The notes beneath the pieces are model-generated. The model worked only from the letters and a program-made list of their open reading frames with translations, ran no database searches and was not told the origin of the DNA. A stretch of DNA of 64,000 nucleotides from Methanospirillum stamsii (GTDB lineage Archaea > Halobacteriota > Methanomicrobia > Methanomicrobiales > Methanospirillaceae), in contig NZ_QGMZ01000008.1 of assembly GCF_003173335.1 (NCBI RefSeq), forward strand, positions 1 to 64,000, given 5' to 3'. Positions 1 through 9,143 of this stretch are shown one piece after another. Within the stretch, counting starts at the first letter, position 1; the number at the start of each line of letters is the position of its first letter. The translations under genes were made by a program, and so were the position numbers.

Positions 1-809
1 ATCACAACTGATCCATCTGAACCGGAATACGGAGTGTAGAGATAAGCTGTAGAACCATGACCTGTTGAGGTTATTTTCTGAAGGACACCTTTTCCATTAA
101 CCGTTGTGACAGTATAGCCAGCAGTATTAGACCAGAGTGAAGTATCTAATGAGCCGGATTCAAAATCATCAAACACTTCAAAGGTTGACTTACCATTGGA
201 AGCAGATGAAGCAGAGGGATTCCCATAATACATCACAACCTGCGTCCCAGCCCTCGGTATCGCCGGAACTTTCACCCACACAACCGCCGAGTTCGCACCA
301 ACCGACTCGATCCAGTAGGGCATCTGGGCACCAACAATCGTAGTAAACCGGAGGTCGCCATAATCTTCCCGGACATTGGATCCAACATACACATTCTCCC
401 CGGAATCAGTCCCATCCGTCCGCCAGACTACAAACCGCATCTGGTAATCCGTCAGATCTCCATCCGGACTCCCGCCAATCGCATGGATCTTCCGGTAACT
501 CCACCCACTCATAAACGCCGGACCACCGGAAACCACCGTCACCGTACTCGAAGCAGAATTAGTCGCCTGAGCCTGAACCTCACTGGTACTCACATCCCCG
601 GAACTCGCCAAAGTCAAATCCGAACTCACCACGCTTGTCTGGACAGGAGACGAGACCACCGGAACATTCACCGGCGACACAGCGGTCGAAGCATCGGCTC
701 CGGAGACATTCATTGATCCGATACACAGGAGAGTGACAATGAGAATAACCAGTACTTTGATTCTCATCATCGCACCAGGGCGGTGCATGAAGCGATGAAT
801 TATAGACAT
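1..809 (-). CDS. Secreted DUF2341-domain surface protein, C-terminus cut by window edge
   Basis: The reverse strand is open from an ATG at 809 to the window edge, giving about 269 residues of a longer protein. A GGAGGA ribosome binding site lies about 6 bases upstream and fixes the start. The N-terminus has an Arg-rich stretch, then a hydrophobic signal segment (about residues 16-34) and a Ser/Thr/Val-rich linker. From about residue 95 the sequence matches the DUF2341 pattern: SGWSYRK, a DYQMRF strand, a GENVYVGSN/YGDLRF segment and the ending VVMYYGNPSASS. A FDDFESGSL stretch follows, typical of the concanavalin-like module after DUF2341. Such proteins are exported by methanogens and are thought to bind sugars or form surface layers. 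It is the last visible gene of a minus-strand group led by the double protease. The function is inferred from domain type only. Confidence 0.8.
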   Translation of the reverse strand, partial: MSIIHRFMHRPGAMMRIKVLVILIVTLLCIGSMNVSGADASTAVSPVNVPVVSSPVQTSVVSSDLTLASSGDVSTSEVQAQATNSASSTVTVVSGGPAFMSGWSYRKIHAIGGSPDGDLTDYQMRFVVWRTDGTDSGENVYVGSNVREDYGDLRFTTIVGAQMPYWIESVGANSAVVWVKVPAIPRAGTQVVMYYGNPSASSASNGKSTFEVFDDFESGSLDTSLWSNTAGYTVTTVNGKGVLQKITSTGHGSTAYLYTPYSGSDGSVV

Positions 810-1060
810 GATTGTTCCTCCATTACGGGAGTTGCACACGGGATATTCGGAATATTGTGCCGGATGATATTCCGGACGAGGGGATGATTTCCCATTAATC
901 CAATTACAGCCATCCGGAAGGTGGGCGTACCAGCTATCAGGTAAAGCCATGCAGAGGACTGCCACGTTACCACTCGGTTCCGGAGAGAAGAGATCGGAAT
1001 GTCCGATCTGCTTCCGGTTTCATTGCGGTGGCAATCGATGATATTATCCAGTCTGTTCAT
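800..1060 (-). CDS. Small ORF filling the gap between protease and DUF2341 genes (uncertain)
   Basis: An 86-codon frame starts at an ATG overlapping the protease stop (ATGA at 1057-1060), with GGAGG about 8 bases upstream. It ends by overlapping the DUF2341 start by 10 bases, so it spans the whole gap in a coupled arrangement. The protein has no recognisable domain, signal peptide or membrane segment; its composition (many Arg, Asn, Ile) is ordinary. The GGAGG may be only the last codons of the protease (Met-Glu-Val). It may be a real coupled gene, or simply the remains of the leader of the DUF2341 gene. Confidence 0.35.
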   Translation of the reverse strand: MNRLDNIIDCHRNETGSRSDIPISSLRNRVVTWQSSAWLYLIAGTPTFRMAVIGLMGNHPLVRNIIRHNIPNIPCATPVMEEQSCL

Positions 1061-4000
1061 GATCCAACCTCCATTGAGGCCACGTTCATGCTGAGGCCAT
1101 TGTCGACTGCGAGTGTGACCGTATAGGTACCCGGAGTATAAAATGAATGTGTCGGGTTCTGGGTACTTGATGTATTGCCATCACCAAAGTTCCAGGTCCG
1201 GGATGATACCGTTCCCTCGGAGACATCAAAGAACTGGATGGTCAGGGGATTGACAGTAGGTGTCGGAACTCCGTAAAATTTTGCCTCTAGGGGTGATACA
1301 TATTGGAGGGATGAGTATGCATTTACCCGTCCTCCGGTCACACACCTCCCGGACAACGAACTCTTTGCATCCACTCCGCTCATAATCGCTGTTTTGAGTT
1401 CAGTAGTTGTTGCTGATGGGTCTATGGCTTTGAGCAGCCCGACAATTCCGGCGACATGGGGGGTTGCCATCGAGGTTCCGGACATATATGCATATGAACT
1501 TCCCGGATAGGTGCTGTAGATACTCTGGCCCGGAGCTGCGACATCAACCGTCGTGGCCCCGTAATTGGATCCCCAGCCCCAGTTTGCATTAGTTACAAGG
1601 CGGTCCATGTGATCAGAGGCTGCAACGGCGAGGATATTCGCATTCGGAAGAGCACTTGGAGACTGTGGGACAGAGTCTGTGTTTACCCCATCATTTCCGG
1701 CGGCACAGATGAACAGGGCATCGGAATACTGGTTTATAGCATTCTGTAGTGCCGTATCGGTTCCATCCCCTCCCCAGGAGTTGGAGAAGATCCGAACACC
1801 CTGGGTATATCCCCAGGCAAAAGCTTCTATTGCATCACTGGTAAACCCGGATCCGGACGAGTCAAGGAACTTGAGTGGCATAATCTTCACATTCCAGTTG
1901 ACTCCGGCAACTCCGATCCCGTTGTTTCCAACCGCTCCGATTGTTCCGGCACAGTGGGTTCCATGGCCATTGTCATCCATCGGGTTGGTTGTTCCGGTGA
2001 TGGCATTGTACCCGCCGATCATGTTTGCTGCAAGGTCCGGATGGTTGTAATCAACACCGGTGTCGACAACTGCAATCACAACATCACTTGATCCGGTAGT
2101 GACTGCCCAGGCTTCCGGAGCATCGATGTCGGCATCTGCTGTTCCACCGGTCTGTCCGGTGTTGTGCAGACCCCACAGGTACGCGGCTCCTGGATCATTC
2201 GAGATTGAACTGGTGGATCCGGACGGGAGCAGGGTTCCGCTAACGGTTGCAGTCTGTCCGGAGGTCACGGATGTGCTGGTTGTGTAATCATTGTAATTGG
2301 TAAGTTTGAGGGTGACCGCATGGTTTCCGGCAGCAACAGAACCTACCGTCGCCGGAGTGGTCTTTCCGGTGTCTGTGCCATCAACCCAGATTCTGGCACC
2401 GGTCGGAGTTGATGTCCCATATATTGATCCGGTCTGGGCCGCTATTCCATAGTTGACGTTGAATATTGAGAAGTAATGGCTTTGGTATCCCTGGGATGAC
2501 TTCCCACTATAGTTCATGTTCATCTTCAGCCGGAACAGACCATTCGGGCGTCCGGAGTTCTTACCCCAGCTGTTCAGGACTATCCAGTACCGCTGGTCTG
2601 GATCACTGCTGGAATCATCATATCCGACAATGATAACTGCATGACCGCCTCCGGATGAACCATAGGCGATGTTATTATACGTGTCCGGGTTCCAGAGGGC
2701 TGACTCGGTCTGGTACGCCCAGAAAGAATTAAAGGCACTCCAGGAAGAACTGTCCGGGAGGAAGAATGCCCACCAGACCGCCTTGTTATTATCAATTTGT
2801 GCCTTGATATTAGCAATTGCCTGTGCCTGGGACACACCGTTTGTTGAAAGCCAGCTGGTAGAGATGCTGGTTATCGGGTAATTGGGCGTTGTAGAGATGC
2901 TTGATGCCGGAGTCTGTGTTCCGCATCCGTATGAGCAGGCATACCGGTCATTATAATAGGCATTTGTGTTTGACCAGGGGATGACCTGCTTGAATCCGGA
3001 GGTGCTGTGGAAATTCGCAAAGGTGCTGGCCCAGCCACCATTACATGCTCCGTTGGAGGCACTTCCTCCATTATAATTCGAATCAAAGTATTGTATTGAG
3101 AGGCGGTCCTTTATTCCGTTCTGAACAGTAAGAGCGTTTTCAATAACTCCGGTAGAGGCCCAGACCCAGCAGTTCCCACAGTTGCCCTGGTTCCGCTCAG
3201 ATGGAGCATATTGGATATTGGAGAGCAGGCTTTTGCTTCCGAGGGTGGTAGACAAGGGGGCGTTTTCAACTTTTACTGCAGCATTGTAATCGCTCTGGAT
3301 CTCGGCCACATCCTCAAGAGAAAGGTGCATGTATCCAAATCCTTCCGTCTCATTCGCAGTAGTAACTACACTGGAAGTAACTCCGGAAGTAACAGAGGGA
3401 GTTTGTAAAACAGGAGTAGTTGCAACCGGAGTTGTTCCGGAAGATGGAACATTTACTCTTCCTAAAATTGCTGACTCACGAAAAGAGACTGCTTTCTGAT
3501 TTATCTGAACCGGGACTGTTGTTGCAGGAAAAGCATGATATATATAATCCGGCTGGGCATACTCGACCATCGGGTTCATCTCGTACAGAGCAATTGCTTT
3601 CTCGGTTCCGGTACTGTTCGGAACCGACACAACCTGCATTCCGGTAACTCCCAGAGTTGTGGCATCTGCAATGACCGATGCACCAAGAGCGGCATTTGCC
3701 TGAGTCTGGACCTGGTTGACGGAAGAGATAGAAACTCCTGATGTCTTATACTTTACAATGACCCGGTCAGGAGCAAAAGAACGATTATCAGAAGAAACAT
3801 TTTGAGTTGCCTCTGCAATTTGAACAGATTCTGCTGCAGTCTCAACGCCCGATGCCCCGCTCATCACCGGTGAAGAAACAATTCCGGACATTGTCCGCTG
3901 AACTGGAGAAACACTCACCGGAGATACCGGTTTTACCAGGGAAGGCACTGCCGGACCTGAAGGCACCACTACGTCAGGAGGTTTTACCACCCCGGATATT

Positions 4001-4095
4001 CCGGGAATACTGACATCCGGAACTGCCGAGACCACCTGCATGCTGATAAAGAGGATAAAAATAATAAATATGAAGATTTTTGCGTTATTTGCCAT
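1057..4095 (-). CDS. Secreted double protease: subtilase (S8) with a papain-like (C1A) domain between its propeptide and catalytic domain
   Basis: 1012 residues. Domain order: signal peptide (about 5-24); Pro/Val/Ser-rich linker; a subtilase propeptide-like region (about 108-188, opening PDRVIVKYK and closing VEYAQPDYIYHAF); a C1A papain-like domain (about 258-550) with Gln303, nucleophile Cys309 (QGNCGNCW), His485 (GGGHAV) and Asn508 (VLNSWG); a PEGA repeat (about 554-622); an S8 catalytic domain (about 632-935) with Asp678 (VVDTG), His711 (NGHGTH), oxyanion Asn801 and Ser875 (SGTSMATPH); and a C-terminal PKD domain (about 936-1010, WNFGDGNTS). All catalytic residues of both proteases are present. 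NDPGAAYLWGLHNTGQ normally follows the propeptide directly in subtilases, so the cysteine protease and PEGA look inserted at the maturation junction. It is probably cell-surface or secreted, heading a minus-strand group with the DUF2341 gene. Confidence 0.92.
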   Translation of the reverse strand: MANNAKIFIFIIFILFISMQVVSAVPDVSIPGISGVVKPPDVVVPSGPAVPSLVKPVSPVSVSPVQRTMSGIVSSPVMSGASGVETAAESVQIAEATQNVSSDNRSFAPDRVIVKYKTSGVSISSVNQVQTQANAALGASVIADATTLGVTGMQVVSVPNSTGTEKAIALYEMNPMVEYAQPDYIYHAFPATTVPVQINQKAVSFRESAILGRVNVPSSGTTPVATTPVLQTPSVTSGVTSSVVTTANETEGFGYMHLSLEDVAEIQSDYNAAVKVENAPLSTTLGSKSLLSNIQYAPSERNQGNCGNCWVWASTGVIENALTVQNGIKDRLSIQYFDSNYNGGSASNGACNGGWASTFANFHSTSGFKQVIPWSNTNAYYNDRYACSYGCGTQTPASSISTTPNYPITSISTSWLSTNGVSQAQAIANIKAQIDNNKAVWWAFFLPDSSSWSAFNSFWAYQTESALWNPDTYNNIAYGSSGGGHAVIIVGYDDSSSDPDQRYWIVLNSWGKNSGRPNGLFRLKMNMNYSGKSSQGYQSHYFSIFNVNYGIAAQTGSIYGTSTPTGARIWVDGTDTGKTTPATVGSVAAGNHAVTLKLTNYNDYTTSTSVTSGQTATVSGTLLPSGSTSSISNDPGAAYLWGLHNTGQTGGTADADIDAPEAWAVTTGSSDVVIAVVDTGVDYNHPDLAANMIGGYNAITGTTNPMDDNGHGTHCAGTIGAVGNNGIGVAGVNWNVKIMPLKFLDSSGSGFTSDAIEAFAWGYTQGVRIFSNSWGGDGTDTALQNAINQYSDALFICAAGNDGVNTDSVPQSPSALPNANILAVAASDHMDRLVTNANWGWGSNYGATTVDVAAPGQSIYSTYPGSSYAYMSGTSMATPHVAGIVGLLKAIDPSATTTELKTAIMSGVDAKSSLSGRCVTGGRVNAYSSLQYVSPLEAKFYGVPTPTVNPLTIQFFDVSEGTVSSRTWNFGDGNTSSTQNPTHSFYTPGTYTVTLAVDNGLSMNVASMEVGS

Positions 4096-7290: not shown

Positions 7291-7482
7291 TTGCGATGTG
7301 AAACAGGTTATTCCGATCTACCCCGGCAAAAAAGATACGACATTTCCTGATTGATCCTTCACGGGAGAGATACGATCATGCAATTCTGCATAAATCGGCT
7401 GAAGGAAAGCATATTCCTGTCCTAGCATCTTCCCGATGAAGGATCCTTATCATCTTACCTCGTTTCCATCCCTTCAACCAGA

Positions 7483-8219: not shown

Positions 8220-9143
8220 TTAGGGAGTCATTTTTTTAATAAAGTTAAACAGGTCATCGATGCTTTGAAAATCCAGGATCTCAAAACTCAGGATGTCCAA
8301 TATTGTACTATCCATATTCTGAAGAGATGTAAGTGTATCTTTTGGAAGAGGACCAAATTTCTTCACGAGCAGTCTCTCGATAAGGGCTAGTTTCTCTTCA
8401 GTTCTGCCTTTTTCTAAACCCTGTTCAATACCCTGTTCAATGCCAATCACAATACCCTGTTCTTTTCCCTTATCCTCTGCATATTTCAAAATTTTTAACA
8501 TTTTTATCTCCTCCCATATTTTCTCTATAAGGTAGGCTTCTACAAGCCTGTTACTCATCACCATGGTCAATGCAATTACTTTATTCTTGAGGTTCTCATC
8601 CTTAATTTGTTTCTCAAGTTTTATTGTTTCGAAAAGCAGGTCCTGAACCGGAAGTCTGCTCTCCATGAGTGGAACGAATATCAGTTCCAGTTCATTTACC
8701 GGATTTCCATTGGCTACCTCTTTTTTTATACGTTCTAATGCTTCATCTGCATTTCTTCCCCGGATAATCTGGTGAGTAACAGTGTAGTGCAGACACCCTG
8801 TATCAATAAAAAATGAATCCTTTTTTGAACAGGCCGGTGAGAGTATAACCGTATGGATACGGACATGATATTTTGAAAATATTCTCAAATCATAATGGGC
8901 AAACCGAATCAGGTCTTCTTCCGTCAGGGATGTTTGCTCTTCGATGTGAAGTATATCACCATTTTCAAGTCTGAAGATAAGATCGACAAACTCGTCTCTT
9001 GTCTCCACCTGGGCAAACTCTGTTGCTAAAACTCCGGTTATCTTTGGGAGGTCAAGACCGAGGAATTCAAGTGTCTTGTTTTCAAAAAGAGTCAGGGATT
9101 CTTTAAAGGCAAGATCGTAATTTTGAGAGTTTATCTTATTAAT
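8220..9143 (-). CDS. Rpn-type nuclease family protein with C-terminal DUF4351
   Basis: Homology spans about 307 codons: an N-terminal part (INKINSQNYDLAFKE, TLEFLGLDLPKITGV), then ETRDEFVDLIFRLENGD and HIEEQTSLTEEDLIRF (the D...ExQ PD-(D/E)XK-type core), a middle helical region, a GIEQGIEQGLEKGR repeat hinge and a DUF4351 C-terminus (ALIERLLVKKFGPLP, then TLTSLQNMD). It is a likely nuclease of the Rpn/putative transposase group. Oddity: the conserved N-terminus continues upstream of the first GTG (9008) to about 9143 with no ATG, GTG or TTG in frame; an ATT at 9143 preceded by GGGGTG is the best placed start. If ATT is not used, translation must begin at 9008 and lose about 45 residues, or the gene is dead. 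Confidence 0.7.
   Translation of the reverse strand: MNKINSQNYDLAFKESLTLFENKTLEFLGLDLPKITGVLATEFAQVETRDEFVDLIFRLENGDILHIEEQTSLTEEDLIRFAHYDLRIFSKYHVRIHTVILSPACSKKDSFFIDTGCLHYTVTHQIIRGRNADEALERIKKEVANGNPVNELELIFVPLMESRLPVQDLLFETIKLEKQIKDENLKNKVIALTMVMSNRLVEAYLIEKIWEEIKMLKILKYAEDKGKEQGIVIGIEQGIEQGLEKGRTEEKLALIERLLVKKFGPLPKDTLTSLQNMDSTILDILSFEILDFQSIDDLFNFIKKMTP

Follow-up and report, generated by a model that had tools for sequence, protein, structure and literature searches.

In the window, a stretch of 64,000 nucleotides of Methanospirillum stamsii DNA, one gene encodes a chain in which two unrelated, apparently complete proteases are combined in one zymogen. A papain-like C1A protease (C1) and a PEGA domain are inserted into an S8 subtilase at its processing point, between the propeptide (NPro) and the catalytic domain (S8). 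The families are known; the arrangement appears to be new, as no description of it was found, and it is real and maintained by selection in more than one species. The data are best explained by a secreted or surface-located bi-protease zymogen with a separate pro-segment for each enzyme; a cut in the linker would remove NPro and leave C1-PEGA-S8-PKD. We assign this reading a probability of roughly 0.55.

Protease cascades usually run between separate proteins. Natural controls exist in the form of two different C1 occupants, a syntenic relative with a deleted C1, insert-free sisters and fusions of reverse order, and they make the action of a propeptide across a 440-residue insert and the mutual activation of linked proteases directly testable. 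Furthermore, the pairing of S8 and C1 seems to be recurrent in a methanogen family, in which external proteolysis has been little studied.

Domain order and active sites

The open reading frame is intact and contains no internal stop codon (Table 1). The Pfam search resulted in matches to Fervidolysin_NPro-like (PF22148, residues 97-183, 1e-10), Peptidase_C1 (PF00112, residues 301-529, 1e-13), PEGA (residues 557-622), Peptidase_S8 (PF00082, residues 670-908, 5.9e-53) and PKD (residues 942-1009). The order NPro-C1-PEGA-S8-PKD agrees with the original prediction that the subtilase propeptide and the S8 domain are separated by a C1A domain and PEGA. The completeness of both catalytic sets, likewise predicted, was confirmed position by position. 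The active site of C1 consists of C309, H485 and N508 together with Q303, and all four are invariant in the C1 alignment (A5). The active site of S8 consists of D678, H711 and S875 together with N801, of which D678, H711 and S875 are invariant in the alignment. Q303 and N801 are the oxyanion-hole positions of C1 and S8, respectively. From the signal-like N-terminus and the domain types only, we infer a secreted or surface location.

Table 1. Features of the protease gene, given as positions in the window (residue numbers refer to the encoded protein).
Feature	Position	Strand	Basis
Whole gene, 1012 aa	1057..4095	minus	ATG start at 4095, single open frame
Hydrophobic N-terminus, putative signal peptide, residues ~1-26, MANNAKIFIFIIFILFISMQVVSAVPD	4018..4095	minus	sequence, inferred
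NPro subtilase propeptide, residues 97-189	3529..3807	minus	PF22148, BPN′ alignment, model 1
Low-complexity linker, residues 190-254	3334..3528	minus	dN/dS, low pLDDT in both models
Putative C1 pro-segment, residues 255-284	3244..3333	minus	alignment, predicted helix 260-272, cathepsin proform superposition
Type A C1A papain-like protease, residues 285-550	2446..3243	minus	Pfam, alignment, model 2
PEGA domain, residues 553-628	2212..2439	minus	Pfam; pLDDT 85-91 in models 1 and 2
Catalytic domain of the S8 subtilase, residues 630-935	1291..2208	minus	Pfam, catalytic residues, structure match
PKD domain, residues 938-1009	1069..1284	minus	Pfam
Stretch absent from the syntenic G010 gene (C1 and half of PEGA)	2317..3441	minus	blastn blocks

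Directly 3′ of the protease gene, a DUF2341 gene with a signal-like N-terminus is located at 6-965 (minus strand); no such neighbor is evident among the ORFs listed at the G001 and G003 loci (ORF lists, no domain scan). Between positions 7478 and 12000 of the window, several blocks match the contig of G010 at more than one place, which suggests that the DNA surrounding some genes, for instance the DUF4351 gene at 8220-9008, is repeated.

Position of the insert and structure models

In 44 NPro-S8 proteins from a broad genome collection, the matches to NPro and S8 are separated by a median of 4 residues, and the lone slot fusion (a protein with C1 between NPro and S8) among the NPro-S8 proteins of this collection has a gap of 517 residues. 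As judged from sequence comparison, the split of NPro and S8 in the window protein is beyond chance. F189 aligns with the final residue of the subtilisin BPN′ prosegment (a weak alignment, E 0.35), and residue 630 is the first of S8 with homology to mature deseasin MCP-01. The insert thus occupies the interval from where a propeptide would usually end to where the mature enzyme would usually begin. The insertion had been proposed to lie exactly at the site of subtilase self-cleavage. By homology (F189 and residue 630) this placement stands, but its exactness is qualified by an N-terminal segment belonging to C1 itself, starting near residue 255, and by a linker of about 55 residues, which the closest insert-free relatives have at the insert's place.

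With an insert of ~440 residues, the window protein departs from the usual NPro-S8 layout, in which the propeptide is joined directly or via a short linker. Such joining is not a defining trait of family S8, and its absence marks the variant. The linker between NPro and C1 is long and variable, and conservation along the stretch from NPro to S8 is lowest in its residues 190-254, whereas the link between PEGA and S8 comprises only about 5-10 residues. A proline following F189 was considered as a fusion-specific block of self-cleavage and was ruled out, since a proline is found there in 10 of 49 non-slot proteins.

Two structure models were used. Model 1 (AlphaFold, residues 95-940, 27 sequences) resolves NPro (pLDDT 90-97) and S8 (mostly 90-98); in the PEGA-S8 link, its pLDDT falls below 50 at model residues 532-536 alone. 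Model 2, to which C1 relatives were added, resolves C1 (pLDDT mostly 85-97) and PEGA. C1 and S8 were never both resolved in one model, and the placement is reliable for NPro on S8 only.

NPro and S8 can be superposed together, as a single body, on pro-Tk-subtilisin in its unprocessed form (3wiu, 2z2z and 2e1p; VIA-align, model positions 15-841) with Z 44-45 over about 339 residues at 2.1-2.2 Å. The superposition on pro-subtilisin E (3whi) comprises 342 residues, and that on subtilisin catalytic domains alone ~270. Because NPro and S8 superpose jointly on unprocessed pro-subtilisins, NPro is predicted to dock on S8 at the usual place, across the ~440-residue insert. The earlier assignment of residues 108-188 to a subtilase propeptide is thereby upheld in the structure-model check, both by the NPro fold (pLDDT 90-97) and by the predicted canonical docking.

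The secreted subtilases fervidolysin, thermitase and Tk-subtilisin are alike in propeptide fold, predicted docking, Asp-His-Ser triad and apparent secretion, but the window protein differs from them by the ~440 residues (C1 and PEGA) between propeptide and catalytic domain. The closest solved S8 structure is deseasin MCP-01 (3vv3; Z 49.8, 54% identity over 300 residues), which is without a C1 or PEGA module. Like the window protein, it has a C-terminal PKD domain.

Distribution, probable exchange and loss of the C1 domain

A second gene of identical domain order is located in the window's own genome, on another contig (C34). In total, roughly half of the 12 Methanospirillum genomes searched were found to contain the slot fusion: it occurs in G001 and G009, the single-contig genome G003 has two tandem copies, and additional copies in G006 and G009 are cut by contig ends. 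The search of G004 and G008, which are nearly complete and belong to the same 12, did not reveal it. Both active-site motif sets are intact in each of the six complete slot copies (6/6). An assembly error could be ruled out by the occurrence in several genomes, the paralogue in the same genome and the tandem copies within the single contig of G003, and the possibility that the two halves come from a misassembled gene, named as a caveat to the original prediction, is not borne out.

The slot is occupied by two types of C1. Type A is found in the window gene, G001, G003 copy 1 and G009 copy 1 (91-93% identical to the C1 of the window), and type B in the C34 copy, G003 copy 2, G006 and G009 copy 2. 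Type B, about 25% identical to type A, has the classic C1A form and a longer pro-segment. In the C1 tree, both types are nested among their own free-standing relatives; by their S8 and NPro parts, however, fusions of either type belong together, and they have a linker motif around 'PV.(I/V)N' in common. Most simply, these sequences would be explained by a persisting slot in which the C1 occupant was exchanged. For a separation of the type A S8 parts from those of type B into a clade of their own, the tree test gave a borderline p-AU of 0.054. Monophyly of all slot fusions versus the insert-free pair L057/L058 is weakly supported (50/28), and for this reason these insert-free sisters may be secondary losses of the insert.

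Free-standing archaeal secreted C1A proteins (L064, L029, L060) have the same type A C1 with an N-terminal segment and PEGA or PKD partners, but no subtilase in the chain. In the window's genome, a free type B C1A-PKD gene (L050:1197-2954, plus strand) is located about 2 kb from the type B fusion; with some 59% identity to the C1 in the slot, its C1 is likely a relative of the cassette.

The dN/dS of C1 is the lowest of the domains, with 0.03-0.05 in types A and B at a dS of 1.2-2.0 in distant pairs. It follows that both C1 types are under selection and were not recently copied. For S8, dN/dS is about 0.08-0.10 where estimable, for NPro about 0.10-0.25 (distant pairs) and for the linker 190-254 about 0.2-0.5 where estimable; in the distant pairs, residues 190-249 are far less constrained than the domains. 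The low dN/dS at saturated dS indicates that both catalytic domains are maintained, C1 most strongly. Recent gene conversion as the origin of the 91-93% C1 identity was ruled out, as dS of C1 is saturated as elsewhere.

In the syntenic gene of G010 (Methanomicrobiales archaeon AS06rmzACSIP_503), seen on one metagenome contig, the deletion of C1 is in frame; linker remnants and half of PEGA are left, and the NPro and S8 motifs are intact. The S8 part is nearer to that of G001, which points to the involvement of recombination. Since this gene has lost C1 and yet retains NPro and S8, C1 seems dispensable for S8 if the gene is taken at face value.

In sister genera of the same archaeal family, proteins of 1100-2300 aa show the reverse order NPro-S8-C1-PKD. 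These proteins (L041, L043, L044, L045, L046, L090) likewise have both proteases in one chain, but C1 follows S8 and belongs to another C1 subgroup, and the propeptide adjoins S8. Lectin_like and DUF2341 were found in the two reverse-order proteins scanned with Pfam, and DUF2341 is located C-terminally in the S8-C1 proteins of this order. Another S8-C1 combination is the 1585-aa protein NPro-S8-PKD-PKD-C1-PKD-PKD-PKD at L082:1846-6600 (plus strand), in which the S8 His and Ser motifs were not found with the motif patterns used and S8 may be divergent.

The C1 survey was confined to archaea and covered the order (232 genomes) and a sample of the phylum (393), with a selection of the long frames checked. 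Elsewhere in the phylum, none of the long C1 frames that were sampled contained S8. In four long proteins (L111, L113, L098, L104), C1 was matched in two pieces, far from the N-terminus. Among the 80 best NPro/S8-type loci of the genome collection, S8 and C1 were found in one frame only in M. hungatei M59. No described S8 and C1 fusion was found by a free-text search of the literature, with most subscription journals outside its coverage; within that range, the domain order is, as originally supposed, not known as a described system.

Processing and activation

Evidence for a pro-segment of C1 comes from model 2 and from alignments. The modeled C1 has the papain fold and resembles proforms most closely (Z 20-22), such as pro-Der p 1 (Z 22.1) and pro-cathepsin H (Z 21.0). 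The proform alignments extend some 25-40 residues upstream of the mature C1 domain (partial superposition), and residues ~255-284 are also found on the N-terminal side of free-standing C1 relatives. In type A, the putative pro-segment is short, is predicted to be helical and superposes partly on cathepsin proforms. For type B, the best match is pro-cathepsin H, covering part of the propeptide, while no I29 propeptide match was listed by Pfam at E 0.05. The proform matches of model 2 suggest that residues ~255-284 may act as C1 pro-segment. As C1 thus seems to have a pro-segment of its own, there would be no need for it to rely on that of the subtilase.

In the preferred reading of a two-enzyme zymogen, NPro would play its ordinary part after export, assisting the folding of S8 and inhibiting it, and a cut in the disordered linker 190-254 would then remove NPro. 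The remaining C1-PEGA-S8-PKD would be a two-headed enzyme with two cleavage specificities, degrading external or envelope protein, and the C1 pro-segment would then be cleaved off autocatalytically or through S8. A cut beside residue 630 instead would free NPro-C1-PEGA as a single piece. The arrangement would have originated when the C1-PEGA cassette of a free-standing C1 protein entered the NPro-S8 linker of a Methanospirillum subtilase, the slot being kept since and its C1 occupant exchanged. A role in sheath processing was set aside as speculation only, the gene not being found in about half of the genomes; these proteases are unnamed in two Methanospirillum sheath papers (PMC6242892, PMC11576556).

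A two-stage activation within one chain, in which S8 would remove the C1 pro-segment or C1 would cut the NPro linker and thereby free S8, fits the observations that both enzymes look complete and flank the processing region and that the type A C1 pro-segment would need cutting. In Plasmodium, the subtilisin-like SUB1 is reported to activate the papain-like SERA6, with autocatalysis also involved (PMC8167364); subtilase and papain-like protease act there in one pathway, but as separate proteins with cleavage in trans. Cross-activation is possible in the window protein. The original prediction had offered a two-stage activation as one possible reading of the position of the insert. That the position implies it is countered by the syntenic G010 gene, which retains NPro and S8 without C1, by the insert-free sister subtilases, which share the propeptide, and by the proteins with S8 before C1; a proline after the propeptide end is common in insert-free relatives, too. 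Because a C1-less relative and a reversed order exist, the position alone does not establish a cascade, and we consider two-stage activation rather unlikely. A cis two-protease circuit, in which the slot C1 would control or be controlled by the release of NPro and C1 proteases would serve as exchangeable cassettes, is put forward as a tentative idea of similarly low probability.

The chain could also be a polyprotein, in which S8 cuts on both sides and frees C1-PEGA, so that C1 travels within the subtilase propeptide. The insert does lie, by homology, between the propeptide end at F189 and the mature start at ~630, and C1-PEGA occurs as a free-standing architecture in relatives. However, the PEGA-S8 link of ~5-10 residues is short and the long flexible stretch precedes C1, and the reverse-order fusions suggest that staying joined matters, which leaves such a release improbable. 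An accidental fusion or assembly error without function, with which the patchy occurrence in about half of the 12 Methanospirillum genomes (not found in G004 and G008) and the deletion of C1 in G010 would agree, is very improbable in view of the independent genomes that carry the slot fusion, some with two copies, the strong purifying selection on both catalytic domains at saturated synonymous sites, and the intact active-site motifs of all six complete copies.
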